Shown here one piece after another: positions 5,352 through 55,511 of a stretch of 64,000 nt of DNA. This DNA is from Staphylospora marina (GTDB taxonomy: Bacteria > Bacillota > Bacilli > Thermoactinomycetales > Thermoactinomycetaceae), in the NCBI RefSeq assembly GCF_003856495.1, contig NZ_CP034118.1:1958182-2022181 (forward strand). Direction: 5' to 3'. How positions within the stretch are numbered: position 1 is the first letter of the stretch; each line of letters opens with the position of its first letter. The notes beneath the pieces were generated by a model, which was not told the origin of the DNA, searched no databases, and was given only the letters and a program-made list of their open reading frames with translations. Made by a program: the position numbers and the translations under genes.

Positions 5352-6002
5352 GTGCCTATGAGAACGCAAGGACAGCCGGAAAACCAAACGCTCAACCCGA
5401 ATGTTTCCTCCCCGCAACTGAACCACGGGGCGCATGAAATCCACGATGTGCGCGAAGTGCTCACCTGTGCGGTCAACATCGCGGACCAATATTTGATGCT
5501 GATCTCCCAAGCTCAGGATCCGGAATTGCGCGACATCCTGACCCGGCAACGCCAATTCATGATTCAGGAATACAACACGCTGGTGGAGTGCTTCCGCACC
5601 GGTCAAGATCCTTCCACCCCGACCGGATCTTATGAAATGAAGCAAGGCAACAACGTGGAATACGGGAACGGGCAAATGCAATCCGTGGCTCCGGCCGCTT
5701 CGCCGAATGAGATCGACGACCGGAGAATCTCGTCCCAAGCCTTGGGATTGATGAAATCCTCCGCGCTCGCCAAGACGAAAGCCGCCTGCGAAGTGACCAA
5801 CCCGGTGGTTCGCCGCGTTCTCGCGGACAGCGCGCCCAACTGCGTCGAAATGGCATATGAACTGTTCCTGTACCAAAACAAACGCGGCTATTACCCGGTT
5901 CAGCAACTTCCGCAAGATCAAGCCATCCAGTTGCTGAACTCCTTCCAACCGGCATCCGATGCTTCCGTTCCGGGAGCTCCCCAAACCAACCACATGCAAT
6001 AA
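5352..6002 (+). CDS. CotF-like spore coat protein
   Basis: About 217 residues of CotF-type coat protein: a hydrophilic start (RTQGQPENQTLNPNVSSPQL), a CotF segment HEIHDVREVLTCAVNIADQY with QAQDPELRDIL, and a C-terminal YELFLYQNKRGYYPV tail. The protein is expected in the spore coat. AGGAG at 5338-5342 is nine bases before a GTG at 5352 and about 15 before the ATG at 5358, so GTG is preferred. A three-codon frame (ATG TGC CTA TGA, 5350-5361) overlaps both. A sequence reminiscent of a late sporulation -10 (CATATTA) lies near 5310. A terminator follows directly. Confidence 0.8.
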   Translation: MPMRTQGQPENQTLNPNVSSPQLNHGAHEIHDVREVLTCAVNIADQYLMLISQAQDPELRDILTRQRQFMIQEYNTLVECFRTGQDPSTPTGSYEMKQGNNVEYGNGQMQSVAPAASPNEIDDRRISSQALGLMKSSALAKTKAACEVTNPVVRRVLADSAPNCVEMAYELFLYQNKRGYYPVQQLPQDQAIQLLNSFQPASDASVPGAPQTNHMQ

Positions 6003-6008
6003 CGATGA

Positions 6009-6044
6009 GAAGCCCGTCGAAAGTCGATCGACGGGCTTCCTTTT
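6009..6044 (+). terminator. Rho-independent terminator of the cotF-like gene
   Basis: GAAGCCCGTCGA (6009-6020) pairs perfectly with TCGACGGGCTTC (6028-6039) over a 7-nt loop and is followed by CTTTT. It begins seven bases after the stop codon. Confidence 0.88.
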
Positions 6045-6046
6045 GA

Positions 6047-6077
6047 AGCAAAAAAGCGACCTTCGCGGAGAAGTCGC
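6047..6077 (-). terminator. Terminator of the HAD nucleotidase gene
   Basis: Read on the minus strand, GCGAC-TTC and GAA-G-GTCGC form a stem around TCCGC, followed by six T. It lies about 55 bases past the stop of the gene that ends at 6132. Confidence 0.7.
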
Positions 6078-6131
6078 CTGAAAGATCTTCGGTATCACCA
6101 CGGAACCGAAATATGCGACCGTGGAACCGTC

Positions 6132-6704
6132 CTAGGTTTTGGCCATTCTCGACTCCAGCAGGTCATACACTTCACGCCAGTCATGAATGCGGGGAAGCGG
6201 CCAGGGGATGTCCCGGTTGTAAACGGCGTCGACGACCACCGTGGGAATGCCGTTTCTGTACAGGTTCGCCAGGTGTTCGGGGGCATCTTCGAAAAAGAGT
6301 TCCACTCCCGCTTCACGGGCTTTCTTCGCTTTGTCGAACGCATTCATCACCAGGTTTTTCCCGTCGTACGGAAAACCGTGCCGTTTCAGCCAATCCCGGG
6401 TCACCCGTTCGACTTTCCCGATCGCGGGTCTGGCGGTGATGAAAAACACTTCATGCCCTTTGGCCACCAGGTCGGAGAGCACTTCCGGCGCATGTGGAAG
6501 CGGAACCCCGAGGGAATAAATCTCCGCTTCCAGCTTCCTCCACAATTTGCGACCTTCTTGCCGCGTCAGTCCGTACGCGTTGTCCAGATGAAATTCGGTC
6601 ACGTCTTCCGCGCGAACGTTTTTTCCGAGCTCTCTGTTGTACACTTCCACCGCGGCCCGATGGGTATCTTTGACCGTACCGTCAATGTCCACACCGAGTC
6701 TCAT
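6132..6704 (-). CDS. HAD-superfamily hydrolase, NT5C/YqfW-like putative nucleotidase
   Basis: A 190-residue haloacid-dehalogenase-fold phosphatase. Motif I is LGVDIDGTV at the N-terminus with both catalytic Asp. Motif II is FFITARP around residue 92, and the C-terminal acidic motif is LFFEDAPEH around 137. The family includes 5'(3')-deoxyribonucleotidases, so a nucleoside monophosphate phosphatase role is likely but the substrate is not proven. The ATG at 6704 follows GGAAGGCGATG. It appears monocistronic, with its own terminator and the 6S RNA gene upstream on the same strand. Confidence 0.82.
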   Translation of the reverse strand: MRLGVDIDGTVKDTHRAAVEVYNRELGKNVRAEDVTEFHLDNAYGLTRQEGRKLWRKLEAEIYSLGVPLPHAPEVLSDLVAKGHEVFFITARPAIGKVERVTRDWLKRHGFPYDGKNLVMNAFDKAKKAREAGVELFFEDAPEHLANLYRNGIPTVVVDAVYNRDIPWPLPRIHDWREVYDLLESRMAKT

Positions 6705-6802
6705 GAGTCATCGCCTTCCCGTTTCCGGTCACCGACCGACCGAAGGTGACCGCATGATTCACCCATTACATTCCCCAACCCGACCGCTCTTTACGCATAA
6801 AA

Positions 6803-7003
6803 AAAAGAAGCCCCGTTATGCCGTGCTCCTCTGGTTTTGAACCTGCTCTCAGCAGGTGGGTGCCCTGCATCCGAATTCACGGGTCCGCCATCCACCGCGT
6901 GGATTCGCGCGGCTTCCGCTCCCCCGGATGACCCGGACTCCCGATCAATGGGTGTTGGCTCAAAACTTCAAGGTCGTCACGCACATCGCAGGACTCCTTT
7001 GTT
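6803..7003 (-). ncRNA. ssrS: 6S RNA
   Basis: The minus-strand transcript can fold into one long closed hairpin. Its 5' end AGTCCTGCGATGTGC pairs (with G-U pairs) with the 3' end GCACGGCATAACGGGGCT. Family signatures are GAGCCAACA in the 5' half and, in the 3' half, a stem-loop ACCTGC-TGAGA-GCAGGT flanked by GGCACCC and TCAAAACC. The long central bulge of 6S RNA fits the middle part. The transcript ends in GGGGCTTC plus seven T. Bacillus carries bsrA next to aspS, and aspS is the second gene upstream here. 6S RNA binds the housekeeping RNA polymerase as a promoter mimic. Ends are approximate. Confidence 0.85.
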
Positions 7004-7009
7004 AAGCTC

Positions 7010-7038
7010 ATGTTACCAAAAGCAGAAGAGAAGATCAA
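7010..7038 (-). promoter_or_regulatory. SigA-type promoter of 6S RNA
   Basis: On the minus strand, -35 TTGATC (7033-7038) and -10 TAACAT (7010-7015) are separated by exactly 17 bp. The predicted start falls at about 7003, just before the 6S RNA 5' end. Confidence 0.65.
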
Positions 7039-7133
7039 GCGGAAATATCATTCTCCAGGAAAATGATTCCACAAAAGAATCCGAAAGGAAGTTTCCGGAC
7101 GGCCGAACCGGCCCGTTTCACGTCAATATCGGC

Positions 7134-7153
7134 GACAAAATTTATATTTTGTC
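7134..7153. promoter_or_regulatory. Perfect 20-bp AT-rich palindrome, operator candidate
   Basis: GACAAAAT-TTAT-ATTTTGTC is an uninterrupted inverted repeat with 8-bp arms. It lies between the 6S RNA promoter and the 3' end of the MarR-GNAT gene. The size and dyad form suit a MarR- or TetR-type operator, but no promoter is visibly overlapped by it. The rest of 7039-7217 holds nothing I recognise. Confidence 0.4.
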
Positions 7154-7217
7154 ACGGAAAAGAATATCCCCGGGAACAATCGAGACGATTGGAATGAACC
7201 CCCTGGAAGAATCCCCC

Positions 7218-8147
7218 TCACAAGGTCAATTCCCAGGTTTCACCAACCTCATCCTCGCCGAACATGTGATGGTTCTCCGCATGAACCAATTCAAACCCAA
7301 AATTTTTGTAGATCCGGCGGGCATCTTTGAGAACACTGTTCGTCCACAGCACCATTTTCTTGTAGCCCCGTCGCCGCGCGAACCGGATGCATTCCTCCAC
7401 CAGCCGTCGCCCCAACCCGAAGCCTCGAGCTTCCGGCTCCACAAGCAGCAGGCGGAGTCTCGCCACCTCCTCGGAATCTTTCGTGACGAAGACGGACCCC
7501 ACGTTTTTCCCGTTCATTTCCGCAATCCAGCAGCGTTCGCGGTCCGGATCGTGATGATTCAAATATTCCGAAACAATCCGGGCCACCAATGCCTCAAACT
7601 GTTCATTCCATCCGTATTCCCTCGCGTACAGCACGCCGTGTCGGTGAATCACCCACCCCATGTCCCCCGGCTCGGGTTCTCTCAGCAAGAACGGCTCCGC
7701 TCCGCTGAAGCGTCCCCGGCGGACAAACACCTCTTCAATGGTCTTCATCGCTTGCAGAAGGCGCTCATCTTCTCCCGGAGGCAAGCCCTCCAACCACTCG
7801 GCCACTTCCTTTCCGGACCGCTTATCCAGGATGGCAAATTCCTTCCGTCCTTCCTCCGTCAGTGAAAGAATGCGTTGCCTGGCATCCGCATCCGACCGGA
7901 CTTTTTCGATCAGACCTTTTTGTTCAAATCGTTGCAGGATCCGACTGAGATATCCCGGGTCCATGCCCAGTTCACGGGACAGTCCCGTCATGGTCCACTC
8001 CCGGTCCTGTGCCAATTCAAACAGGACTCTGGCCTCCGTCAGGGAATACGGACTGTGCAGCAGCCCTTCCTGCAAAACCCCGATCTGGCGGGTGAAAAAA
8101 CGGTTGAATCGACGAATGGCATTCACTTTCTCTTCCATCGACTTCAT
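7218..8147 (-). CDS. MarR-type regulator fused to a GNAT acetyltransferase
   Basis: A 309-residue two-domain protein. Residues ~1-140 form a MarR winged helix (GLSRELGMDPGYLSRILQR as recognition helix; RQRILSLTEEGR as wing). Residues ~150-309 form a GNAT fold with the acetyl-CoA loop EARGFGLGRRLVEECI and a C-terminal LWTNSVLKDARRIYKNFGF segment. Such fusions are common in Bacillota; the acetylated substrate is unknown, and the MarR part probably autoregulates or senses a ligand. The ATG at 8147 has a strong AAGGAGGGAG site six bases upstream. It is monocistronic. Confidence 0.88.
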   Translation of the reverse strand: MKSMEEKVNAIRRFNRFFTRQIGVLQEGLLHSPYSLTEARVLFELAQDREWTMTGLSRELGMDPGYLSRILQRFEQKGLIEKVRSDADARQRILSLTEEGRKEFAILDKRSGKEVAEWLEGLPPGEDERLLQAMKTIEEVFVRRGRFSGAEPFLLREPEPGDMGWVIHRHGVLYAREYGWNEQFEALVARIVSEYLNHHDPDRERCWIAEMNGKNVGSVFVTKDSEEVARLRLLLVEPEARGFGLGRRLVEECIRFARRRGYKKMVLWTNSVLKDARRIYKNFGFELVHAENHHMFGEDEVGETWELTL

Positions 8148-8222
8148 CGTTCTCCCTCCTTGCCTCATTTATTTGCCATTATCAAACAATTATTTGCTTC
8201 GGTCAAGTTTTTTCGCCCGCAC

Positions 8223-8258
8223 AAAAAACCTCGTCCATGCACATGCATGAACGAGGTT
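8223..8258 (-). terminator. Terminator downstream of aspS
   Basis: Minus-strand AACCTCGT and ACGAGGTT, plus an inner CATGCA/TGCATG pair, form a hairpin followed by six T. It lies 76 bases past the aspS stop, so the hisS-aspS transcript probably ends here. Confidence 0.8.
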
Positions 8259-8333
8259 GTCCACAACGTCCTCAGCCGGCTCCGTCCGGCGGCGGGATCG
8301 ATGATGGAGTTTCGCGATGCGCTCATTCACCGG

Positions 8334-10112
8334 TCAGGTGTTCACCTTTTCATCCACCTGAAGCCTCAGCTCCCGGAGCTGCGCTTCGTCCACCGGAGAC
8401 GGCGCTTCCGTCATCAGGCAGGTGGCGCTGTTGGTTTTGGGGAAGGCGATCACGTCCCGCAAATTGCCCCGGCGCGCCAGCAACATGACCAGCCGGTCCA
8501 GCCCGAACGCGATGCCTCCGTGAGGCGGCGCACCGTATTCGAACGCTTCAAGCAGGAATCCGAATTTTTCACGCGCTTCTTCCATCGAAATGCCCAAGAC
8601 GGCAAACATGCGCTCCTGGATTTCCCGTTTGTGGATCCGTCGGCTTCCGCCCCCCAGTTCGTACCCGTTCAGCACCAGGTCATAGGCCACGGCACGCACC
8701 TTGCCCGGATCGGTTTCCAATAGGGGCAGATCCTCATCCATCGGGCTGGTGAAGGGGTGGTGCTTGGCATACCAGCGTCCGTCTTCCGGAGAGTATTCCA
8801 AAAGCGGGAATTCGGTCACCCACAGGAATTCAAACTTCGATTCATCGATCAGGTTGAGGGCTTTCGCAATCCGCACCCGCAGTTCTCCCAGAACTTCCGC
8901 CGCGACATCCGGCCCGTCGGCGATGAAGAACAGCAGGTCCCCCTCTTCCGCTTCGGTTTTCACGCGAATGGCCTCGATGTCCGTCGGGTCCATCGCCTTG
9001 GCGATCGATCCTTTCACTTCTCCGTCCTTGAAGGCGAGCCAGGCGAGACCTTTGGCTCCCAGGTGTTGGGCGACTTTGGTCCAGTTGTCGATCTCTTTGC
9101 GGCTCCACCCCGCGCATCCTTTCACGTTGATCGCCTTCACCCGGCCGCCGGACGCAATGGTGGAAGCAAACACCTTGAAAGAGGTGTCCTTGAGGGCCTC
9201 CGACAGATCCATCAGTTCCATGCCGAACCGGAGATCCGGCTTGTCGGATCCGTAGCGCTCCATCGCTTCCCGGTACGTCATCCGGCGGAAGGGGACCGGG
9301 ATCTCCACGCCGATCGCTTCCCGGAACAGCCGGGCCATCATCTCTTCCATCATGCCCATGAATGCTTCGGTATCCATGAACGAAACCTCAATGTCCACCT
9401 GGGTGAACTCCGGCTGCCGGTCCGCCCGGAGGTCCTCATCCCGGAAACAGCGAACGATCTGGAAGTAGCGTTCGATACCGGAAACCATCAACAGCTGCTT
9501 GAACAGCTGGGGAGATTGCGGCAACGCATAAAAGGATCCGGGATGCACCCGGCTCGGCACCAGATAGTCCCGGGCGCCTTCCGGCGTGCTGCGGGTGAGC
9601 ATCGGTGTCTCCACTTCCAGAAATCCGCGTTCGTCGAGGAACCGACGGATGATTTGCGACGCCTGGTGTCGGATCTTGAGCGCCTCCTGCATCCGCGGCC
9701 GGCGAAGATCCAGGTAGCGGTGTTTGAGCCGGATCGATTCATCCACATCCACGTTGTCCTGGATGGGGAAGAGCGGGGTCTTGGCCGGGTTGAACACCTC
9801 CAACCTTTCGCAGACGATCTCGATGTGACCGGTCTTCATGTTCGGGTTCACGTTTTCCGGCGCCCGGCGCTGCACTTTTCCGAAGACGGACAACACGTAT
9901 TCGTTGCGCACCTGCTTCGCCGATTCGAATAATTCCGTGGAAAGTTCCGGGATGACCACAACCTGGATCCGTCCCGTCCGGTCACGGAGATCGATGAAAA
10001 CGTGTTTTTTCTGATCCCGTATATGCTGCACCCAACCGTTCAGGACAACGTCGGTTCCTTCCGGGAGTCCGATGCAATCCATAATGCAATGTGTGCGTAA
10101 CAGCTCCTTCAC
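8334..10112 (-). CDS. aspS: Aspartyl-tRNA synthetase
   Basis: A 592-residue class IIb synthetase that charges tRNA-Asp. The N-terminal OB domain includes [20 protein letters not shown]; class II motif 2 is around [18 protein letters not shown]; the GAD-type insertion follows; motif 3 [13 protein letters not shown] is near the C-terminus. GTG at 10112 has GGAGGGAAG about eight bases upstream. It follows hisS with a 24-nt gap and shares its T-box-controlled transcript, as in other Bacilli. The length is typical of bacterial AspRS. Confidence 0.98.
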
Positions 10113-10136
10113 GAAACTTCCCTCCTGCCGATTGAC

Positions 10137-11399
10137 TCAGACCTGTTCTTTCAGCCACTCGACGAGCCGGTCGAGAGAAATCGTTTCCTGCCGGCCGTCC
10201 GTCTGATTTTTCACGTTGATTTGACCGTTTTTCCATTCTTCGTCTCCGAGGATCGCCACAAAGCGGGCCCCGAGGCGCTCGGCTTGTTTGAACTGGGCTT
10301 TCAGCTTGCGGCCCATGTAATCCCGTTCGGCCATCAACCCGGCGGCCCGGAGATCTTCCAGGATTCGCACCCCTGCCCGGTCCGCCTCTTCTCCCAGCGT
10401 GACGAGCCAGCAATCGACCGCGGCATCCCCGGGCACGCCGACCCCCTGTTCTTCCAGGGCGAGCAGCACCCGCTCCACGCCGATGCCAAAGCCGATTCCC
10501 GGCATGTCGGGGCCGCCGATTTCGGCCACCAGACGGTTGTATCGTCCGCCTCCGCCGATCGAACCGGCCTGCGAACCCTTCGACTCCACCGTGTATTCAA
10601 ACGCGGTGAACGTGTAGTAATCCAACCCGCGAACCAGCCGGTCGTTCAGTTCAAACGGAATGTCCAGCAAGGTGAGCGCGTCTTTCACCCGGTCGAAGTG
10701 GCGCTTCGCCTCCTCGCTGAGGAAATCCAGGATGGACGGCGCCCCGGCGGAAATTTCTTTGGTGCGCGGGTCCTTGCTGTCGAGAATGCGCATCGGATTT
10801 TTGTACAGACGCCCTCTCGCTTCTTCGGCCAGTTCGTCTTTGTAAGGCTCGAAGTATTCGATCAGCTTTTCGAAGTAGCGCGCCCGCGACTCCGGATCGC
10901 CCACGCTGTTCAGTTGAACCGTCACTCCCCGGAGGCCGGCTTCGCGGAAAAACCGCATGCCCAGTGCGATCACTTCCGCATCCAGGTACGGATCCACGCT
11001 GCCGAACGCCTCCACTCCGAACTGGTGGAACTGCCGGTTCCGCCCCGCCTGGGGACGCTCATAACGGAACATCGGGCCCATGTAATACCACTTGGTCGGC
11101 TGGGGCTCCGCGTACCATTTGTTTTCCACGAACGCCCTCACGACCCCGGCCGTTCCTTCCGGACGAAGGGTCAGGTCCCGGCCTTTTCTGTCCTGGAACG
11201 AATACATTTCTTTTTCGACGATGTCCGTCGTCTCACCGACTCCCCTTCGAAACAGTTCGGTATGTTCAAACACGGGCGTGCGAACTTCCCGGTATCCGTA
11301 GAGTCGGCACCATTCCCGGAATTTCGCTTCAACCCATTGCCACTTCTCGCTCACGCCCGGAAGCAGATCCTGGGTTCCCCGCGGAATTTTGTAAGCCAT
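10137..11399 (-). CDS. hisS: Histidyl-tRNA synthetase
   Basis: A 420-residue class II synthetase for tRNA-His. It starts AYKIPRGTQDLLPG and has motif 2 FRYERPQAGRNRQFHQ. The histidine-specific loops are LVRGLDYYTFTAFEY and GGGGRYNRLV, with motif 3 GIGFGIGVERVLL, followed by an anticodon-binding domain. The ATG at 11399 begins the conserved MAYKIPRGTQ sequence; a TTG four codons upstream abuts GGGAGG and is less likely. It is the first gene after the T-box leader and is followed by aspS. Confidence 0.98.
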   Translation of the reverse strand: MAYKIPRGTQDLLPGVSEKWQWVEAKFREWCRLYGYREVRTPVFEHTELFRRGVGETTDIVEKEMYSFQDRKGRDLTLRPEGTAGVVRAFVENKWYAEPQPTKWYYMGPMFRYERPQAGRNRQFHQFGVEAFGSVDPYLDAEVIALGMRFFREAGLRGVTVQLNSVGDPESRARYFEKLIEYFEPYKDELAEEARGRLYKNPMRILDSKDPRTKEISAGAPSILDFLSEEAKRHFDRVKDALTLLDIPFELNDRLVRGLDYYTFTAFEYTVESKGSQAGSIGGGGRYNRLVAEIGGPDMPGIGFGIGVERVLLALEEQGVGVPGDAAVDCWLVTLGEEADRAGVRILEDLRAAGLMAERDYMGRKLKAQFKQAERLGARFVAILGDEEWKNGQINVKNQTDGRQETISLDRLVEWLKEQV

Positions 11400-11418
11400 C
11401 CTTCCATTCAACCTCCCG

Positions 11419-11735
11419 AAAAAAATGAAAATCTCCCGCCACTGACCTGTTTGTCAGGGACGAGAGATTGGTTGCCTGTTCCCGTGGTACCACCCTGGTT
11501 GGAAATCCGTATGGCCGGACTTCCCACTCATTGCCCCGATATCGCCGGGGATCGCGTCCAAGTCTACTGACCGATCGTTCGATGCGGCGTTCGGTTGGAA
11601 CCTCCGGGTGTCTTTCCCCGATGCGTGACACGGAGAACCTCTCAGCCCACGGGTTCTCCTCTCTGGTTGTCCGTTTAACGGGTACTTTTCCCTTCCTCGG
11701 TCTGTGTATTCCGCTGTGAATTCCGAAGTATTTAG
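11419..11735 (-). promoter_or_regulatory. T-box leader of the hisS-aspS operon
   Basis: The minus-strand leader has the diagnostic T-box AGGGTGGTACCACGGG (11481-11496), which can pair with an uncharged tRNA end. It is followed by an intrinsic terminator (11430-11469, with poly-U at 11419-11429). Stem I features are the AGTA bulge after GGGAAA, the AGAGAGG distal region and the GGCTGAGAGG turn. The specifier region at 11608-11612 reads GACAC, which contains both GAC (Asp) and CAC (His). This matches the two enzymes of the operon and suggests response to either tRNA. Transcription should read through when the tRNA is uncharged. Confidence 0.92.
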
Positions 11736-35420: not shown

Positions 35421-36836
35421 ATGACAGAAATCCTTGACATGGATGCTTCCGGATTGGCGGAATCGATCCGGCTCGGGCACATCTCGCCGCGCGAGGCGAC
35501 GGAAGCCTATATGGCCCGGATCCGCCGGGTCAATCCCAACATCAACGCCGTGGTGGAAACGCGATTCGAGGAAGCCCTGCGCGAAGCGGACTCTCCTCCG
35601 GGACAAAAAAACGGACGACTGCGGGGCGTGCCGGTAAGCATCAAGGAATCGTTTGACGTGAAGGGCATGCTGACCACCGGCGGCATTCCCGGACTTGGTC
35701 GGACCCCGGCTCCCGCCGACAGCGAACCCGTCCGAAGGCTTCGTGAAGAAGGGGCCATCGTGCTGTGCAAAACCAACACGCCGGCTCTCTGCTTCTGCCA
35801 GGAGACGGACAACGTGCTGTACGGTCGCACCAACAATCCCTGGGATCTCACCCGCACGGCCGGCGGTTCGAGCGGCGGAGAAGGAGCCCTGATCGCGGCG
35901 GGGGGAGCCGCCGTGGGGCTGGGATCGGACATCGGCGGTTCGATCCGCTTTCCGGCCCATTTCAACGGGGTGATCGGATTCAAATCCGCGGCGGACTCGG
36001 TCCCTGATTCCGGTTCCCATCCCGTGTCGCCGTGGCCTTTGCAGCGGATCATGCTGGGACACGGTGCCATGGCCAAGTCGGTGCGCGATGCCCGCCTGAT
36101 CCACGAAATCATCACCGACCGGCACATTGCGACCGTTCCCGACGATTCCGTCCGCGTCTCGGTCCCGGAGCCGCTCCCGGACCTGCCGATGGGGCAGGAA
36201 ACGGCCGACCTGCTTCAAGCGATCCGCCGCAGCTTGCAACGGAACAGAACGGTGGATGCCGAAGGAGCTCCCCATCTCAAAGAATCCGCCTTGACCTGGC
36301 AACTGATCATGTCCCTGGGAGGTGCGGAACACATCCGGAAAACGGCCGGACTCCGGGGAATTCTGCACACGACGACGGAGTGGCTGAAGGGAAAGGCGGG
36401 CCTTCACACTCCCTGGCATCCATGGCTCACCTGGGGGTTGCTCGGGGCCTGGATGTTCCGACCGAACGATCAACAAGTCGCCGAATTGGAGCGTTGGCTC
36501 GCCCGGTCCCGCAAGGAAGTGGAAGCGTATCTGCGCGGCCGCGTCGTCATCCTGCCCGTCTGGCACACCGCCGCCCCCGAACACGGCACGGTCTACGGGG
36601 AGATTTTCTCCATCCGCAAAACCTTCCTGAAATACATGCCCTATGTCGCCTGGGTCAACACGTTCGGCCTTCCCTCCCTGACGGTCCCCGTCGGCGAGGA
36701 TCGGGACGGACTCCCGATCGGCGTTCAGCTGGTGACCGCTCCGGGACAGGAAGATGTGCTGTTTCGGCTGGGAGAAGAACTGGAGCGCGATTTCCGCGGA
36801 TACGTCCGCTGCCGCCTGGAAGATCAGCCCGCATGA
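35421..36836 (+). CDS. Amidase-signature family hydrolase
   Basis: A 471-residue amidase-signature enzyme that hydrolyses amide bonds through a Ser-cisSer-Lys triad. The Lys is in GVPVSIKESFDVKG (~residue 75), the cis-Ser in TAGGSSGGEGAL (~150) and the nucleophile Ser in GSDIGGSIRFPAHF (~175). The substrate is not predictable. It is not GatA: no gatB or gatC is adjacent, and the C-terminal half resembles stand-alone amidases. ATG at 35421 has GGGGGAG seven bases upstream; the longer frame starting at 35289 has no support. Confidence 0.9.
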   Translation: MTEILDMDASGLAESIRLGHISPREATEAYMARIRRVNPNINAVVETRFEEALREADSPPGQKNGRLRGVPVSIKESFDVKGMLTTGGIPGLGRTPAPADSEPVRRLREEGAIVLCKTNTPALCFCQETDNVLYGRTNNPWDLTRTAGGSSGGEGALIAAGGAAVGLGSDIGGSIRFPAHFNGVIGFKSAADSVPDSGSHPVSPWPLQRIMLGHGAMAKSVRDARLIHEIITDRHIATVPDDSVRVSVPEPLPDLPMGQETADLLQAIRRSLQRNRTVDAEGAPHLKESALTWQLIMSLGGAEHIRKTAGLRGILHTTTEWLKGKAGLHTPWHPWLTWGLLGAWMFRPNDQQVAELERWLARSRKEVEAYLRGRVVILPVWHTAAPEHGTVYGEIFSIRKTFLKYMPYVAWVNTFGLPSLTVPVGEDRDGLPIGVQLVTAPGQEDVLFRLGEELERDFRGYVRCRLEDQPA

Positions 36837-36846
36837 TTCACAAAGA

Positions 36847-36875
36847 AAAGCCCCGCGCAACACGCGTCGGGGCTT
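36847..36875. terminator. Shared terminator between convergent genes
   Basis: AAGCCCCG (36848-36855) and CGGGGCTT (36868-36875), with an inner CG-rich extension, lie between the amidase stop and the convergent isomerase stop. A residues upstream give a T run on the minus strand. Confidence 0.75.
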
Positions 36876-36894
36876 CAAGGTGCGGCCACCCCTC

Positions 36895-37710
36895 TCAACC
36901 CTGAACGGGAATCCCCAGCTTCTCCTGCAGATAATCCCGGCACACCGTCAAACTTTGAAGCGGCGTGGAAAGGGACCGGTCGATCTCCACCGTCACCCAT
37001 CCGTCATAGTCCGTTTCCTTCAAAAAATCCATGATCTCCTTCAAACGGATGTCGCCTCTCCCCAATTCGCAAAACACCGTTCCCTCCTCCCCGTCCGCGG
37101 TGCCGGCGCCCAAGGAGGCATCTTTCAGATGAAGATACGCGATCCGGTCCTTGTACCGCTGCATGACCGCCAACGGATCCATCCCCGCTTTGGCCATGTG
37201 GGCCGTATCCGGACAGAGAAACACGCATTCCGGATCGGTCCATTCCATGATGGCATCCAATTCCCACTCATCCTGGATCTCCGTCCACAGATGCGGATGA
37301 ATGCAAGCTTTCACTCCCAGCTCCATGCAGCGTTTCGCCGTTTCATTGATGGTCTCCGCGGCGGCTTTCAGCATCTCCCGGGTCATCCCGGACTCCGGAC
37401 GCGGACCTTCGGGTCCCAACACCAGCCGGTTGCTGCCGCACTCCCGGAGAAACCTGGCCACCCGGACATTGTATGCGATCACATCGCTTCGCTTGAACGA
37501 ATCGCTGAATCGTCCCGCGGCGTACAACCCGGACAAGACCAAACCATGCTCGTCGAGCAACTCCCGAAAAGCGGCCACGTCCTTCTCATATTGAAGGGCA
37601 TGATGCGTAAGAGGCTCCACCGCCCCGAAGCCGAGCCCGGCCGCTTCGGTCAACGCCTGCCGGAACGCTTCCCCCCAAGTGATCAAATGACATGACACAC
37701 GAATCGGCAT
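36895..37710 (-). CDS. Sugar phosphate isomerase/epimerase family TIM-barrel protein
   Basis: A 271-residue AP-endonuclease-2-fold TIM barrel (the IolE/IolI/xylose-isomerase-like group). Metal-ligand segments are visible: VEPLTHH, HPHLWTEIQDEWE, FLCPDTAHM, YLHLKDA and TVEIDRS. Members isomerise or dehydrate sugars such as inosose; no other sugar-catabolism gene is adjacent, so the substrate is open. ATG at 37710 follows GGGGGAGAGGCGG. Upstream lies the 1.1-kb hairpin cluster. Confidence 0.85.
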   Translation of the reverse strand: MPIRVSCHLITWGEAFRQALTEAAGLGFGAVEPLTHHALQYEKDVAAFRELLDEHGLVLSGLYAAGRFSDSFKRSDVIAYNVRVARFLRECGSNRLVLGPEGPRPESGMTREMLKAAAETINETAKRCMELGVKACIHPHLWTEIQDEWELDAIMEWTDPECVFLCPDTAHMAKAGMDPLAVMQRYKDRIAYLHLKDASLGAGTADGEEGTVFCELGRGDIRLKEIMDFLKETDYDGWVTVEIDRSLSTPLQSLTVCRDYLQEKLGIPVQG

Positions 37711-37861
37711 CCGCCTCTCCCCCTGTTCTCGAATCTTCTCTTGCAACACGCCTTGCTCCCGCACGTTCCCGGGAGCTTCCGACCATTCTATTCTTCGGAT
37801 GTTGAAACAATTCCTTTGTGAACCTTTTACTTTCCATTTTTATATGGATGGATGTTCCAGC

Positions 37862-38252
37862 CATCGTCAGTTCCCTGCTCACTTCATTGCAGAAGCAAAG
37901 GCGTTCGCAGGGAACTGACATGGCTCCGGCGGACATCCTCTCAAAAAAACCCGTCACAGTTCCCTGCTCATTTCGTTGCAGGAGCAATAGGCATTCTCAG
38001 GAAACTGGCACGGACGCAGCATTTGTACAACAAAAGCCGGACCGTCCCCCGTGAGTGCCTTTGCCATCGCAACGAAACGAACGGAGGACGATTCCGGCTT
38101 GCCTCACGACTATGACCGAACGGAGGACGACTCACGGCATTCACGCACACGCACATAAATGAACGAAGCCGGAGCTGCCCCCTGTGAGCGCCTTTGCCAT
38201 TGCAACGAAGCGAACAGGGGGTAGCTCCCGGCAGTCATACGCACACATCAGC
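37862..38252. repeat. Hairpin-cluster unit 1
   Basis: First unit, holding hairpins A1, B1, C1 and E1. Between C1 and E1 is a half-hairpin remnant (GAACGGAGGACGACTCACGG) followed by a flank rich in CGCACAC, which recurs in unit 2. Confidence 0.8.
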
Positions 38253-38632
38253 CATCGTCAGATCCCTGCTCACTTCGTTGCAGAAGCAAAGGCGTTCGCA
38301 GGGAACTGACATGGCTCCGGCGGACATCCTCTCAAAAAAACCCGGGATGGTTCCTCCTCATTTCGTTGCAGACGCAATGGGATTCGCAGGAAACTGGCAC
38401 AGCCGCAGCATTTGTACAACAAAAGCCGGACCGTCCCCCGTGAGTGCCTTTGCCACCGCAACGAAACGAACGGGCTTGCCTCACGACTATGACCGAACGG
38501 AGGACGACTCACGGCATTCACGCACACGCACATAAATGAACGAAGCCGGAGCTGCCCCCTGTGAGCGCCTTTGCCATTGCAACGAAGCGAACAGGGGGTA
38601 GCTCCCGGCAGTCATACTCACACAAAAGCCGC
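38253..38632. repeat. Hairpin-cluster unit 2
   Basis: Second unit, offset by 391 bp from unit 1. Hairpin C2 lost most of its 3' arm at 38474, by a short deletion relative to unit 1, while the remnant and E2 are nearly identical to unit 1. Confidence 0.8.
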
Positions 38633-38953
38633 CATTGTCAGTTCCCTGCTCACTTCGTTGCAGACGTAAAGGCGTTCGCAGGGAACTGACATGGCTCCGG
38701 CGGACATCCTCACAAAAAAACCCGTCACAGTTCCTCCTCATTTCGTTGCAGGAGCAATAGGCATTCGCAGGAAACCGGCACGGACGCAGCATTTGTACAA
38801 CAAAAGCCGGACCGTCCCCGTGAGTGCCTTTGCCATCGCAACGAAACGAACGGGGGACGGTCCGGCAGACTTGCATGCCCTGTGAACACAGCCGGTGTAC
38901 CCCCTGTGAGCACCTATACCTTCGCAATGAAGCGAACAGAGGGCAGCTCCGGC
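38633..38953. repeat. Hairpin-cluster unit 3
   Basis: Third unit, offset by 380 bp. Hairpin C3 (38806-38865) has a perfect outer stem (GCCGGACCGTCCCC with its exact complement). The last hairpin (38891-38953) is a diverged E-type with inner stem lost (CTATACCTTCGCAA). Confidence 0.8.
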
Positions 38954-39037
38954 AATAGAGCACCGGTCTATCGAACGGAGGCCTGCCCGGCGGACATTCT
39001 GATACAATGACATTGACAACCACAAGGAGGTTTGCTC

Positions 39038-39877
39038 ATGAGCCGGATCGTCTCCATGGATGAAGTGCTGAAACACTTGCATGATCCCCAAACGGTCATC
39101 GTCGACTGCCGGTTTGTTCTCGGTCAGCCGGATGCGGGTCGGGAAGCCTACCTGAAGGAGCATCTTCCCGGCAGCGTGTACCTGGATCTGGAACGGGATC
39201 TTTCCGGTCCCGTCATCGGTCCCGGCGGCCGCCATCCTCTTCCCGATCCGAAACGACTGGCGGAAACGTTGGGCAACGCGGGAGTGGATGATTCGGTGCA
39301 GGTCATCGCCTATGACGACCAGTGCGGCGCCATGGCATCCCGGCTGTGGTGGCTGTTGACCTGGCTGGGGCATCCCCGTGTCCGCGTGATGAACGGGACG
39401 TTCTCTCGCTGGAAGGAAAAGGGGTACCCTGTCGATTCGACCGTCCACGTGCCGGTCCGCCGGACGTTTCTCCCCCGGCCGCAGAGCGACATGCTGGCGG
39501 ACGCGGACGAAGTCCTCCGCAAACTGGACGATCCCGATGCGGTGATCATCGACTCGCGGGAGCGGGCCCGCTGGTTGGGCGAACACGAGCCGATCGACCC
39601 GGTGGCCGGACGCATCCCGGGTTCGAAACACTGCTTCTGGAAAAACGTCTGCACGGAACACGGAGAATGGAAAAGCCCCGAAGAACTGGCGCGCCTCTTT
39701 GCCTCCGTCCCGAAGGACAAAGAGCTGATCGTTTATTGCGGTTCCGGCGTGACCGCCACTCCCAACGTCCTGGCGCTCAGGGAAGCGGGATATGAACGGG
39801 TGAAGCTGTATGCGGGCAGCTGGAGCGATTGGATCACCGATCCGTCCCGGCCGGTGAAACGCGGAGACGAAGACTGA
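39038..39877 (+). CDS. Sulfurtransferase with two rhodanese domains
   Basis: A 279-residue thiosulfate or 3-mercaptopyruvate sulfurtransferase. The N-terminal inactive rhodanese domain contains TVIVDCRFVLGQPDAGR and HLPGSVYLDLERDL; the C-terminal active one contains VIIDSRERARWLGEHEP and the catalytic loop VYCGSGVTA with Cys near residue 233. CGSGVT is closer to mercaptopyruvate-type loops, but the donor cannot be settled. ATG at 39038 has AAGGAGG eight bases upstream. It follows the hairpin cluster by 85 bp and ends in a terminator, so it is monocistronic. Confidence 0.92.
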   Translation: MSRIVSMDEVLKHLHDPQTVIVDCRFVLGQPDAGREAYLKEHLPGSVYLDLERDLSGPVIGPGGRHPLPDPKRLAETLGNAGVDDSVQVIAYDDQCGAMASRLWWLLTWLGHPRVRVMNGTFSRWKEKGYPVDSTVHVPVRRTFLPRPQSDMLADADEVLRKLDDPDAVIIDSRERARWLGEHEPIDPVAGRIPGSKHCFWKNVCTEHGEWKSPEELARLFASVPKDKELIVYCGSGVTATPNVLALREAGYERVKLYAGSWSDWITDPSRPVKRGDED

Positions 39878-39944
39878 GGCGAAGCCGGGTTCGGCTCCGG
39901 GGATGACTGATTCGCGTCGGAAGCGGTCAACGGGAAACAACGCG

Positions 39945-39980
39945 AAAAGCAGTGGGGAGCATTCCCTCACTGCTTTTTTC
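39945..39980. terminator. Bidirectional terminator between rhodanese and aldehyde dehydrogenase genes
   Basis: AAAAGCAGTG-G-GGA and TCCC-TCACTGCTTTT form a hairpin with A and T runs on both sides, placed between two convergent stops. Confidence 0.85.
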
Positions 39981-46659: not shown

Positions 46660-47787
46660 TCATCTCATGTACCGGAGGCAAAAGTTGACGGCCCGGTGGG
46701 CGTTCAACATGCCGATCTCCTCCAGTTGCCCGTTTCTCACCGCGGATTGTCTCAAAATGTACCTCACTTTTTCCGGATTGAGGTTGCGATGGATCTGCAA
46801 GAGAAGCGCCACCGTTCCGCACACGTGGGGCACCGCCATGGACGTGCCGCTCATTTCCCGCTTGGATCTGCCCAGCCACGCCGACGGAATGCGGTCGCCC
46901 GGAGCGGCCAGATCCACCTCTTTGCCCGTGTTGCTGAACGTGGAAATCGTTCCGTTGCGGGACACCGAAGTCACCGCGATCGTTTCCGGATACCTGGCCG
47001 GGAAGTCCACGTGTCCCTTGAGCCCCAGGTTTCCGGTGGCCGCCACCATGACGATTCCCCGGCGATGGGCGATCTGGATGGCCTGCTTCAACGATTCGCT
47101 CATTTTGTCCATGCCGAAACTCATGTTGATCACTTGCATGTTGTTTTCGATGCACCAGTTGATCGCCGAGAGCAAATCCGACAAATTGGCGCTCCCTTTG
47201 CGGTTGAAGGCCTTGACCGCGTACAATTCCGCCCGCGGCGCCACCCCGAGGATGGACATTTCCGTCGCCCTGCCCGCGATGATCCCGGCCACATGGGTTC
47301 CATGACCGTTGTAATCCTGCGGTGAAAAGTACGGGGACAACATGTTGACTCCCCCGCGGTAATTGTCCCGCACCGCCGGATGATCCGCGTCGATTCCCGT
47401 ATCGATCACCGCCACCCGGATCCCCTGGCCCTGGGTGATTCGCCAGGCTTTTTCCGCCTCGACCATTTCCACTCCCCACGGAACGGAAATCTCCTTCTTC
47501 TCGACGGTTCCAAGGTACGGCTCCGTCAGGGTGATCCGAATGTCGGGTTCCATGTGTTCAACGCTCTGATGAAGTTCCGAGCCAGGCCTCAGAGGCGAGC
47601 GGGAATGAAATTCCCCGATCACCATGCCGAGGTTTTGGAGCACCCTGACCCGGTGAACTCCGATTTTCCTGAGTTCTTCCACATGTTTTTTGGGATGGAC
47701 TCCGTCCCTCAGAAAAAAGATGCTCCTGAATGTCTTTCTGCTCCGATCGGGCGATGGCTGGGAGAGAGACATTTCATCCGTGTACAT
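46660..47787 (-). CDS. Subtilisin-like (S8) serine protease without signal peptide
   Basis: A 375-residue subtilase. The catalytic Asp is in AVIDTGIDADHP (~residue 130), the His in NGHGTHVAGI (~167) and the Ser in SGTSMAVPHVCG (~320), with oxyanion Asn in VAATGNLG. The ~110-residue N-terminal region resembles an inhibitor-type propeptide. No signal peptide is visible, so it may be intracellular or exported by another route. ATG at 47787 has GGGAGTGA six bases upstream; GTG at 47808 is less likely. It is divergent from the unknown gene at 47865. Confidence 0.92.
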   Translation of the reverse strand: MYTDEMSLSQPSPDRSRKTFRSIFFLRDGVHPKKHVEELRKIGVHRVRVLQNLGMVIGEFHSRSPLRPGSELHQSVEHMEPDIRITLTEPYLGTVEKKEISVPWGVEMVEAEKAWRITQGQGIRVAVIDTGIDADHPAVRDNYRGGVNMLSPYFSPQDYNGHGTHVAGIIAGRATEMSILGVAPRAELYAVKAFNRKGSANLSDLLSAINWCIENNMQVINMSFGMDKMSESLKQAIQIAHRRGIVMVAATGNLGLKGHVDFPARYPETIAVTSVSRNGTISTFSNTGKEVDLAAPGDRIPSAWLGRSKREMSGTSMAVPHVCGTVALLLQIHRNLNPEKVRYILRQSAVRNGQLEEIGMLNAHRAVNFCLRYMR

Positions 47788-47864
47788 GTTTTTCACTCCC
47801 GTTTTCACTCCCGGCCCCGGGCCTGAATACCATAAACCGAATTCGGGCCTTGAGAGGATGGTGC

Positions 47865-52648: not shown

Positions 52649-52697
52649 ATTTACGTGGATTGATGGAATGCATGGAAATTCACAGTTTCCGCTTGAT

Positions 52698-52762
52698 GCC
52701 GGAAACCTTCCCCTGCTCGTTTCGTTGCGATGGCAAAGGCTCTCGCAGGGGAAGGTTCCGGC
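52698..52762. repeat. Covarying hairpin H1, distal to CRISPR array 1
   Basis: The arms begin GCCGGAAACC and end GGTTCCGGC (18 bp with one bulged A). The conserved apex TCGTTTCG-TTGC-GATG-GCAA-AGGCTCTC is identical to H2 at 54698-54762. H1 and H2 differ at only two positions, which pair with each other (A-T here, G-C in H2). It is followed by TTTTCATTGTGTGTGAG, which H2 shares. Confidence 0.85.
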
Positions 52763-52789
52763 TTTTCATTGTGTGTGAGTTTGCAGATG

Positions 52790-52966
52790 TCTTCTAATCC
52801 ACACTGGATTCAATAACGGTTTTTGATCCATGCATCAATTTCTTTGGGAACGGTAGAGTATTAGTTTCCAATCCACAATGGTTTCAATAACCTGGCGGAT
52901 CATCACTTCGATGTGCTTGTCGTTGATATCGTGTACAAGTTTCCAATCCACAATGGATTCAATAAC
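52790..52966 (-). CRISPR. CRISPR array 1 (three repeats, two spacers)
   Basis: 28-bp repeats at 52790-52817 (degenerate, four mismatches), 52864-52891 (one mismatch) and 52939-52966 (perfect). The minus-strand form begins GTTATTGAATCC, has the dyad AATCCA-TTG-TGGATT and ends GGAAAC, like type I-B/III repeats. Spacers are 46 and 47 bp. The degenerate repeat is at the left and the leader at the right, so transcription is on the minus strand. Spacer 52892-52938 encodes a peptide resembling the RpoC C-terminus. Confidence 0.9.
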
Positions 52967-53135
52967 CCCCTCGTCAATTCTGGCTTTCGGCAATTCTCAC
53001 AGCTCAAAACCCTTGATTTTTCGTGATCTGCAACCTTCCCAACCCCCTCAAAACAGGGGAGGGTTGTAGATAAATTCGGGGCAATTGCGCTGAGCCACAT
53101 AATGTTATCATACCAAATATGGACCTATCCGTCAA
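52967..53135 (-). promoter_or_regulatory. CRISPR leader 1 with promoter
   Basis: About 130 bp adjoining the last perfect repeat are nearly identical to leader 2. They contain a C/G-rich dyad (CAACC..CCCC / GGGG-A-GGGTTG, 53030-53067). On the minus strand, TTGACG (53130-53135) and TATGAT (53107-53112) are 17 bp apart, a strong promoter pointing into the array and away from cas1. Confidence 0.8.
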
Positions 53136-53364
53136 ATCATTGCAAATTTTGTTGCTCTTGACCGCCCTTTGCAGGGGAATGATCCCTGTCGATGAACCCA
53201 AAAAGGAAATTTCTGTATCCATTTATCTGCAACTTGCCACAAGGGGACTGTGCCCGATTGAGTGCTGGACCGGATCCCTTTTTCCCCGACAATCCATCAC
53301 CGGTGTGAAACATGATTTCGGGGGTAATAAATTCATAACAGACAACTCCGTTGAGGTGTGCACC

Positions 53365-54393
53365 ATGAAAAAGCAACCCCTCTTCCTGACCCGCCCGGTT
53401 TCTATGATGAAAAGACAGGGAACGATCGCGTTGCAATTGGAGAACGAGAACGGAAAAAAACTGATCCCTGTTGAGTAGATTGATTCCATCTATGTAATGG
53501 CGCCCATGACCTTCAGTACCAAACTGCTGGAACTGGCCAGTCGATACGAGATCCCGATTCATTTTTTTCATTACTACGGTTTTTACGTGGGAAGCTTTCA
53601 TCCCAACCAAAATGCATCGGGACAAAGTGAAATCGTGATTGAACAAGCCCTTACATATCGCAATGAAAAGCGAAGACTGATTCTCGCCAAGGAATTTTTG
53701 GTGGGTGTTCAGACCAACCTTCTCAGAAACTTGGCCCGTCTGGAACGAAAATCCGAATTTGCTCTGTCCCCCACCAACAAGCAATCCCTGGACCTTCTTC
53801 GCTCAAAGGTGAGAGCGACTGCAGATCTCGGGTCGCTCTTGGGATTGGAGGGCAAGTTTCGCTCCATCTACTATCAGTCGATGGATGAGTATCTGAAAAT
53901 GAAACACCCGGCATATCAAATCGTCAAACGCACTCGACGCCCACCTCAAAACCGGATGAACACCTTGATCTCCTTTCTGAATTCCCTCTTGTATGTCACC
54001 ATCATTGAACAGCTGCAATTCACCCCTCTTCACCCGGGTATTCCCTTTCTCCACAGCACACGAGATCATAGGCAAAGCCTGGCCCTGGACATCAGCGAAG
54101 TGTTCAAACCCGTCATTGTCGACCGGATCATCCTCCGCCTTCTGTCTTATCGCATGCTGAATGAATCGTGTTTTGAAATGAAAGGGAAAGGCTGCTTTCT
54201 CACGGACACAGGAAAACAAATTGTCATCAAAGCCTACACACAAACACTCAATACATCCATCTTTCACCGGCAAAAACAACGATCATTGACGTATCGCCAA
54301 CTGATTCAACATGAATGCTCCAAACTGGTTGAGCATTTTCGCGGACGTCAGCCTTACCGAAGCTTCCGAATGTGGTGGTCATCATGTTCGTGA
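53365..54393 (+). pseudogene. cas1: cas1 with one in-frame amber codon
   Basis: A full-length Cas1 integrase (type I-B-like) is encoded in one frame but has TAG at 53476-53478, between GKKLIPVE and IDSIYVMAP. Total length is ~342 codons, as in intact homologues. Catalytic residues downstream are intact: Glu in GLEGKFRSIYY, His in GIPFLHSTRDHR and Asp in LALDISEVFKP. ATG at 53365 has GAGGTG six bases upstream. A second fragment could start at ATG 53497. It is either a recent nonsense pseudogene, a split protein or a product of amber suppression. Cas1 integrates new spacers with Cas2. Confidence 0.88.
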
Positions 54394-54647
54394 TCGTGGT
54401 TTATGATGTTCAATCCGTCCGAGTCGCAAAAGTGAAAAAGATCTGCCATCCATACCTCTTCTGGGTTCAACGCTCAACATTTGAAGGAAACCTGTCCCGG
54501 AAACAGGTGCAAGCATTGAAAAAAAGTTTGGAAGATGTGATTCATCCCGACCATGATCAAGTCAAAATGTACATCATTCAGCAAGATACCGCCGTGCAAA
54601 CGGAAGTTTTGGGATGCCCGGATCAGCCTGAGCCCTTTATGTTTTAG
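54384..54647 (+). CDS. cas2: CRISPR-associated endonuclease Cas2
   Basis: An 87-residue Cas2 with the ferredoxin-like start MFVIVVYDVQSVRVAKVKKI, the WVQRSTFEGNLSRKQ motif and DQVKMYIIQQ near the C-terminus. The conserved Asp is in VYDV. ATG at 54384 follows GTGGTGG and overlaps the end of cas1, so the two are translationally coupled and any cas1 block may affect it. No other cas gene (cas3, cas4, cas5-8, cas6) is nearby. Confidence 0.95.
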   Translation: MFVIVVYDVQSVRVAKVKKICHPYLFWVQRSTFEGNLSRKQVQALKKSLEDVIHPDHDQVKMYIIQQDTAVQTEVLGCPDQPEPFMF

Positions 54648-54653
54648 GCATAC

Positions 54654-54688
54654 AAAAAGCGCTGGAGCATTTTCTTCAGCGCTTTTTT
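54654..54688 (+). terminator. Terminator of cas1-cas2
   Basis: AAAAAGCGCTG and CAGCGCTTTTTT form a stem around a 12-nt loop. It starts seven bases after the cas2 stop. Confidence 0.9.
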
Positions 54689-54697
54689 GTATCGAAT

Positions 54698-54762
54698 GCC
54701 GGAAGCCTTCCCCTGCTCGTTTCGTTGCGATGGCAAAGGCTCTCGCAGGGGAAGGCTCCGGC
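54698..54762. repeat. Covarying hairpin H2, distal to CRISPR array 2
   Basis: The arms begin GCCGGAAGCC and end GGCTCCGGC. The apex is identical to H1, exactly 2000 bp away. The only differences from H1 are one compensatory base pair. It is followed by the same TTTTCATTGTGTGTGAG flank and then array 2. Confidence 0.85.
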
Positions 54763-54795
54763 TTTTCATTGTGTGTGAGTTTGCCGATGTCCTTG

Positions 54796-54898
54796 GTTTC
54801 CAATCCACAATGGATTCAATAACGAGCCTGTTCCTGCAGCGGATTCGGAAGCAACAGCAGCAATGTATTAGTTTCCAATCCACAATGGATTCAATAAC
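54796..54898 (-). CRISPR. CRISPR array 2 (two repeats, one spacer)
   Basis: Perfect 28-bp repeats at 54796-54823 and 54871-54898 flank a 47-bp spacer (54824-54870). The repeat is identical to the perfect copy of array 1. The leader is on the right, so the crRNA strand is minus. Confidence 0.9.
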
Positions 54899-55067
54899 CC
54901 CTCGTCAATTCTGGCTTTCGGCGATTCCCGCAGCTCAAACCCCTTGATTTTTCGTGATCTGCAACCTTCCCAACCCCCTCAAAACAGGGGAGGGTTGCAG
55001 ATCTTTTCGGGGTTCGTACGTTGATCCACATAATGGTATGATAACACGATACAGTTCGATCTGTCAA
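54899..55067 (-). promoter_or_regulatory. CRISPR leader 2 with promoter
   Basis: Nearly identical to leader 1 for about 120 bp, including the GGGG-A-GGGTTG dyad. The minus-strand promoter has a perfect -35 TTGACA (55062-55067) and -10 TATCAT (55038-55043), spaced by 18 bp. Homology to the DNA upstream of cas1 continues patchily to about 55170. Confidence 0.8.
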
Positions 55068-55213: not shown

Positions 55214-55271
55214 GCCGGACCTTTCCCCTGCGAGTGCCTTTGCGTGGCAACAAGCAGGGGAAAGGTCCGGC
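55214..55271. repeat. Covarying hairpin H3, inverted orientation
   Basis: A perfect 18-bp outer stem (GCCGGACCTTTCCCCTGC and its complement). The apex is the family loop read on the opposite strand, with the TTTCG side shortened (GAGTGCC-TTTGC-GTG-GCAA-CAA). It precedes the CRISPR remnant. Confidence 0.8.
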
Positions 55272-55449: not shown

Positions 55450-55511
55450 CCGGATGCTGTCCCCTGTTCACTCCGTTGCCGAACCGAAAACATGTACAGG
55501 GAACAGCCCGG
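55450..55511. repeat. Degenerate hairpin H4
   Basis: CTGTCCCCTGT and ACAGGGAACAG are inverted arms around a decayed family loop (TCACTCCGTTGCCGAACC). It lies just right of the CRISPR remnant. Confidence 0.5.

Follow-up and report, generated by a model that had tools for sequence, protein, structure and literature searches.

An array of hairpins with a conserved apex in Staphylospora marina belongs to a dispersed palindromic repeat family, possibly a mobile element recognised through its apex

The window analysed here is a stretch of 64,000 nucleotides from Staphylospora marina (contig NZ_CP034118.1, positions 1,958,182 to 2,022,181). At 37865–38949 of the window, 12 hairpins with the apex TCRYTTCG/TTGC-N4-GCAA/AGGCRYTC were found by a covariance model (R1). 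The array is flanked by two divergent genes identified with Pfam, encoding a xylose-isomerase-like TIM barrel protein (36895–37764, −) and a rhodanese (39032–39877, +). It is therefore located in a double promoter region and not at gene ends. Two long overlapping ORFs in this region (36754–37695, +; 38738–39970, −) have no Pfam match. Elsewhere the window carries a 6S RNA (6806–6997, −; Rfam) and a subtilase-like protein (46660–47808, −), whose similarity to IetS, from a defence-protein library, is weaker. The features of the array are as follows.

37860..38250, no strand: tandem unit 1, four hairpins in the order ++-- (direct repeats D1 and D3, spacing 391; boundaries approximate)
37865..37920, +: hairpin type 1, unit 1 (R1 70.3 bits; fold z -8.0)
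37954..38010, +: hairpin type 2, unit 1, partly decayed (R1 43.7 bits; fold z -2.2)
38039..38094, -: hairpin type 3, unit 1 (R1 72.2 bits; fold z -6.3)
38172..38227, -: hairpin type 4, unit 1 (R1 75.8 bits; fold z -7.4)
38251..38630, no strand: tandem unit 2 (direct repeats D1, D3 and D4; 380 to the next unit)
38256..38311, +: hairpin type 1, unit 2 (R1 69.2 bits; fold z -6.1)
38344..38399, +: hairpin type 2, unit 2, decayed (R1 49.3 bits; fold z -0.3)
38428..38481, -: hairpin type 3, unit 2, one stem arm rearranged (R1 53.1 bits; fold z -0.3)
38549..38604, -: hairpin type 4, unit 2 (R1 75.8 bits; fold z -7.4)
38631..38953, no strand: tandem unit 3 (direct repeats D1, D2 and D3)
38636..38691, +: hairpin type 1, unit 3 (R1 69.8 bits; fold z -7.5)
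38724..38780, +: hairpin type 2, unit 3, decayed (R1 40.4 bits; fold z -0.2)
38809..38863, -: hairpin type 3, unit 3 (R1 69.9 bits; fold z -6.8)
38894..38949, -: hairpin type 4, unit 3, diverged apex (R1 48.2 bits; fold z -2.9)

Six hairpins lie on each strand. The strand order ++-- runs through the array three times, and a direct-repeat search puts the unit starts 391 and 380 bp apart, showing that the threefold tandem unit is real. The preliminary description of this DNA, made from the sequence alone, had reported about 12 hairpins with a common apex in both orientations, a threefold tandem repeat, and outer stems that differ by type but stay complementary, and all of these points were borne out. 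R1 was built from an alignment (A1) of 41 copies of the own genome, which partly includes the array copies; A1 holds 41 of 59 pattern matches after identical, rearranged, badly decayed or redundant copies were omitted by hand. With at most 3 mismatches, the apex pattern matched 11 times in the window, 9 of them within the array span, and never in 100 shuffles. The loose octamer TCRYTTCG matched 32 times against 17.8 expected, a number reached by 0 of 100 shuffles. When the 12 hairpins were folded as RNA, always on the + strand, nine reached z values of -2.2 to -8.0 relative to shuffles. The other three (38340–38405, 38420–38490 and 38722–38786) folded no better than shuffles and are decayed or rearranged. 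The type 2 hairpin shows decay, partial or complete, in every unit.

Three further copies in the window, outside the array, were found by R1 at E<=0.001.

52703..52758, +: further copy adjoining CRISPR-like repeats, upstream of cas1 (R1 78.3 bits)
54703..54758, +: further copy adjoining CRISPR-like repeats, downstream of cas1 (R1 78.7 bits)
55218..55267, -: weak further copy with shortened apex (R1 37.8 bits)

This brings the window total to 15, one fewer than the 16 first counted; a sub-threshold match at 55454 (+, E 0.064) could be the sixteenth copy. At 52696–55000 a cas1 gene (Cas1b-like, 53497–54393, +) lies between two similar segments with pieces that are 95–97% identical, and both segments carry the hairpin and CRISPR-like repeats.

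The own genome (2.75 Mb, 2 contigs) contains 68 copies at E<=1e-3 by R1 and 72 at E<=1e-5 by R2, a model trained also on relatives. A set of 73 copies at 16 places, consisting of the R1 copies and five of a second subtype, was used for the counts below. The hairpins are clustered and their orientation often alternates, as at loci L005 and L003; both orientations occur at 5 of the 16 places. At L005 (4620–5944) a 176-bp unit is repeated 7.5 times and carries two hairpin subtypes in opposite orientation; this repeat sits between convergent genes according to crude ORF calling. At L124 (about 2630236 and 2631952 of the own genome) two identical hairpins with near-identical flanks lie 1.7 kb apart, apparently through a segment duplication. 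At L001, ten hairpin copies (6060–11640) are found among ten consecutive short CRISPR arrays (5500–11700, about 2405500–2411700 of the own genome), whose repeat is like GTTTGAGTTGTATCCATCGTGGAATTGAAAG. These arrays have ten copies of a leader-like segment, and a degenerate repeat ends eight of them, followed by the hairpin. Counted by eye, 8 of the 10 arrays are directly followed by a hairpin in fixed orientation. A reading of L001 as gene cassettes, taken from the hairpin spacing, was rejected, as the spacing is that of the CRISPR sub-arrays. Copies elsewhere, for example in the window array, have no CRISPR link.

Homologues in other genomes, which the preliminary description had proposed to seek with a covariance model, were indeed found. 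R1, trained on the own genome only, found the hairpin in 10 of 60 other genomes at E<=1e-3; in four of these the E-value was at most 3e-5, and in six it fell between 1e-4 and 8e-4. R2 was trained also on these ten relatives, so that its independent finds are limited to G009, G033 and G200. It matched 13 of 42 genomes of the order with the own genome included (12 of 41 others), and 12 of 299 genomes of the class sample, among which G200 is the one match outside the order. In the phylum sample, R2 at E<=1e-5 matched none of 397 other genomes, the own genome being the sole match among 398. Stricter filters applied to the class and phylum samples, with 19 and 14 candidates scored per genome, so weak copies may be missed there. 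Between genomes, the apex is kept on differing stems. A search of named-genome contigs, where records near the window may be absent, returned eight scattered single matches to the exact pattern in unrelated taxa, which is about chance by a rough estimate. Viral contigs gave no match to the hairpin pattern, and searches of plasmids and phages with one hairpin each as query gave weak partial matches at best (E 0.5–0.6). No description of the hairpin family was found in the literature, including by a search with the motif letters, as far as titles and listings and an excerpt of PMC2267715 go.

The pairing of the stems covaries. In the 41 own-genome rows, 91.6% of pair cells were paired, compared with 81.2% after shuffling and at most 50.3% when the arms were slid, and both sides had changed at 14 of 21 pairs, two of them inside the apex. 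With relatives included, in an alignment that was fitted to the structure, both-side changes were seen at 15 of 21 pairs and 90.7% of cells were paired; the number of both-side-changed pairs was reached by 44 of 500 shuffles and the other four measures by none. Pairing thus covaries beyond the slid controls and most shuffled ones, which shows an inverted repeat that is kept paired. The preliminary description would fall if homologues were missing elsewhere and covariation did not exceed that of recently duplicated copies; with homologues in other genomes and covariation beyond most controls, it stands. Its further step, from compensatory change to selection for a folded RNA or single-stranded DNA, is less well supported. 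Template switching during replication can create and mend the stems of inverted repeats, as described in part of PMC8794818, and stem covariation alone is therefore no proof of such selection. A strand test was also inconsistent: G.T and A.C stem mismatches numbered 33 and 37 in the own genome and 8 and 0 in relatives by the model alignment, and 22 and 37 in the own genome and 6 and 19 in relatives with freely placed arms, giving no G.T-over-A.C preference, as sought for an RNA strand, across both alignments. Nor could the two strands be told apart when two copies were folded as DNA.

The tip evidence is better support for recognition than the stem covariation. In alignment A3, weighted over 11 genomes (the own genome supplies 67 of 84 rows, and several relatives a single one), apex columns 23, 53, 54 and 59 reached 1.99–2.00 bits and stem columns about 0.1–1.1. 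The tip mismatches are mostly retained across copies. Columns 22 and 55 change together: T22-G55 occurs in 57, C22-T55 in 51 and G-A in one of 109 distinct copies, in a count whose pattern fixes the neighbouring letters, needs 8 of 10 outer bases paired and leaves mixed copies out. Both main states occur in G000, G011 and G039. Among 72 model-aligned rows, TG was found in 64, CT in 4, TT in 2 and CG in 1, with one gap; the TT and CG rows indicate that mixed copies exist (3 of 71 copies in the model alignment). On the complementary strand, the two main states read C.A and A.G and the outer loop reads GA/GA. Tandem sheared G.A pairs would therefore be possible at the tip of this strand.

In some relatives the hairpin is part of a larger element. 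In G041 it is central in an element that has CTAGAAGCGTTGTGA and its inverse as ends, located at CTAG; 24 inward end pairs span 137–141 bp, and other inward pairs span 88, 274, 367 and 1628 bp. No autonomous partner was found in G041, and the ORF within the 1628-bp pair is not a transposase, as judged by eye. G039 has CTAGAAGCGTTGTGA-type ends in nearly equal numbers on its two strands (125 and 124, at most 1 mismatch). Apex-like sequence (at most 7 mismatches) was present in 18 of 18 fetched G039 stretches, of which eight have both ends 137–139 bp apart and five carry inserts (191–295 bp). Some inverted-repeat elements of G039 (L125, L131 and L144) contain inserted copies of a unit of about 50 bp with GCATAGCGAGACC or its reverse complement. 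The stems and apex allowed 28 G039 hairpin sequences to be aligned, and some G039 elements keep the stems with a diverged apex. Neither of two fetched G038 elements had a recognisable apex. Further copies in G037 and G039 end differently, with ends of the TAGGGCGTGTCTG type, and in G001 hairpin pairs lie about 142–146 bp apart. No shared ends or terminal inverted repeats were seen by eye around the 73 own-genome copies. The different ends around a like apex indicate that one apex occurs in several kinds of repeat.

The orientation of copies relative to replication was analysed in G039, a single contig with dnaA at position 1 (by eye) and the terminus assumed opposite. The sub-motif CCAAAGKCACTCC occurs 113 times there and its reversed control 0 times; these are occurrences of the sub-motif and not hairpins confirmed one by one. 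The left half has 38 minus and 20 plus copies and the right half 11 minus and 44 plus (Fisher 1.4e-6), where 100 positions were listed and the other 13 (12 plus and 1 minus by subtraction) were taken as beyond the last one listed. One orientation relative to replication is thus shared by 82 of 113 copies, which places the GA-rich strand on the lagging-strand template. Of the 113 sites, 50 were picked by hand as a sample, and 28 of these lie between tandem genes, with 18 antisense and 10 sense copies; by replication strand, 17 are lagging and 11 leading. The bias at tandem genes was 14 to 7 for genes moving with the replication fork and 3 to 4 for genes opposing it; divergent gene pairs gave 12 to 4 and convergent pairs 2 to 3. 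Gene direction is confounded with replication in this bias, which could belong to the whole element and not to the apex. The own genome showed no clear strand tendency (7 places all-lagging, 4 all-leading and 5 mixed).

For gene context in relatives, 38 of 56 sites lie between same-direction genes, with 9 convergent, 8 divergent and 1 undetermined, as called by a crude ORF caller that misplaced genes beside the window array; 19 of the 77 sites in the gene-context set overlap an ORF of at least 120 codons, possibly spurious. Among 492 ORFs compared, the families recurring beside hairpins in several genomes were common genes alone. A four-T run follows within 16 nt downstream in 19 of 73 own-genome copies when one strand is read and in 11 of 73 when the other is, compared with 4.4 and 1.6 in shuffled flanks, although related copies are not independent. 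No Rfam match at the window hairpins was over the gathering score, the 6S RNA being the sole Rfam match in the window. Six other loci gave nine matches at E<=5, all under gathering scores; such matches, among them CrfA on a G200 hairpin (31.3 of 38 bits), are weak.

Taken together, we give a probability of about 45% to the reading that these hairpins belong to a small palindromic DNA element that proliferates, has a REP-like layout and is recognised through its apex. A mobile element recognised by its loop had been among the first suggestions, and it fits best with the dispersed copies, the similar apex on unrelated stems and the tip mismatches that are mostly kept. The recognised form would be a folded single strand, most likely the strand reading GAGYGMCTTTGC-N4-GCAACGRARYGA, whose tip could form the tandem sheared G.A pairs and which may be exposed on the lagging-strand template. 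A putative enzyme acting in trans would move or copy the element. The hairpin-bearing elements of the two relatives G041 and G039 may in addition be moved by a transposase that reads their ends, although no such gene was found. On this reading, the window array would have formed from a four-hairpin cluster triplicated by ordinary unequal recombination. In its full form, this would be an order-wide group of mobile palindromes tagged at the apex and not at the foot, with a tandem-G.A tip on the lagging-strand template read in trans by a putative enzyme unrelated to Y1 transposases and integron integrases, so that stems and flanking ends could turn over freely; we regard this combination as rather doubtful.

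It is somewhat unlikely that the copies are kept for a role of the hairpin in transcripts, whether in termination, in stabilising mRNA 3' ends or in protein binding. Such a role would agree with the fixed orientation after eight CRISPR arrays of the L001 cluster, the excess of four-T runs over shuffled flanks and the many relatives' sites between same-direction genes. However, the window array lies between divergent genes with both orientations present, most copies lack a T run, the G.T-over-A.C preference is not consistent and Rfam matches are weak. A conserved tip is also unnecessary for simple terminators. Passive palindromes left by ancestral mobile elements, in which template switching keeps the stems paired and the apex looks conserved through ancestry or gene conversion alone, are an unlikely explanation. 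In its favour, stems can be made and repaired by template switching (PMC8794818), adjacent G039 stem positions differ jointly on both arms, the own-genome numbers of G.T and A.C are nearly equal in the model alignment, and local duplication is obvious. Template switching should erase the tip mismatches, yet most of them persist while the stems turned over between genomes, and the linked change at columns 22 and 55 also speaks against this explanation. A polar chromosome site, where the apex binds a host protein that reads the direction of replication so that one orientation is favoured, is very improbable: the shared orientation in G039 agrees with it, but patchy presence in the order and own-genome clustering with alternating orientation do not suit an essential spaced site.

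If the apex is the recognised part of a mobile element, as we prefer, these repeats would represent mobile DNA that is guided by a hairpin and has no known enzyme, and the conserved tip with its linked mismatch would be a bait for finding that enzyme. They would also show that stem covariation by itself can mislead where replication corrects inverted repeats.

The preliminary description had found no match to REP/RAYT, attC or CRISPR layouts, and the search for the defining features of these systems agreed. The array consists of 12 whole hairpins with shared linkers and not of regular repeats with unique spacers, which rejects a CRISPR repeat. Integron attC sites are imperfect hairpins that are processed as folded single strands. 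The present hairpins resemble them in being imperfect and forming arrays, but none of the 73 copies has an RYYYAAC/GTTRRRY core pair on either strand within its 40-nt flanks, and an integron integrase (TIGR02249) over the curated cut-off was found in 0 of 8 carrier genomes; attC sites were ruled out on these grounds. Tyrosine recombinases below that cut-off occur in 8 of 8 carriers and 14 of 14 control genomes. The MITEs, such as bcr1 of the Bacillus cereus group, are like the elements of about 137–141 bp in G041 and G039, where the hairpin is central between terminal inverted repeats. The own-genome hairpins are unlike MITEs in showing no shared terminal inverted repeats (73 flanks, by eye), and one apex is common to elements with different ends. 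The end hairpins of IS200/IS605 are recognised by a transposase that acts on single strands and has the lagging-strand template as its target (part of PMC6006769); a transposase of this family, the Y1 family (PF01797), was not found in the own genome. Among the eight carriers, Y1 transposases were found in G001, G011, G037 and G041 and not found in the own genome, G031, G039 and G200, and 5 of 14 control genomes have a match; Y1 therefore stays a candidate mover in those four.

The closest likeness in layout is to REP/BIME repeats with RAYT (TnpA-REP), which are also short imperfect palindromes with conserved mismatches, many copies, and pairs or clusters in opposite orientation. Opposite-orientation clusters, a REP/RAYT trait, are present in the ++-- window array, L005 and L003. 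REP/RAYT itself was ruled out by the lack of a Y1 transposase in the own genome and of a GTAG foot tag. Within 14 nt outside the 56-nt model, the stems extending about 5 nt past it, a GTAG or CTAC tag was found at the foot of 0 of 73 copies on either side, and shuffled flanks give 3.9 and 2.9. The CGTC-tagged REPs are palindromic repeats apparently without a dedicated transposase, according to part of PMC3733652, and share the palindromic layout. They differ from the present hairpins in their tag, as CGTC occurs close to the foot of 2 of 73 copies, fewer than in shuffled flanks (3.3 and 3.6); GACG was found in 4 of 73. Unlike the REP/BIME repeats, with their tag near the foot, these hairpins carry their conserved part at the apex.
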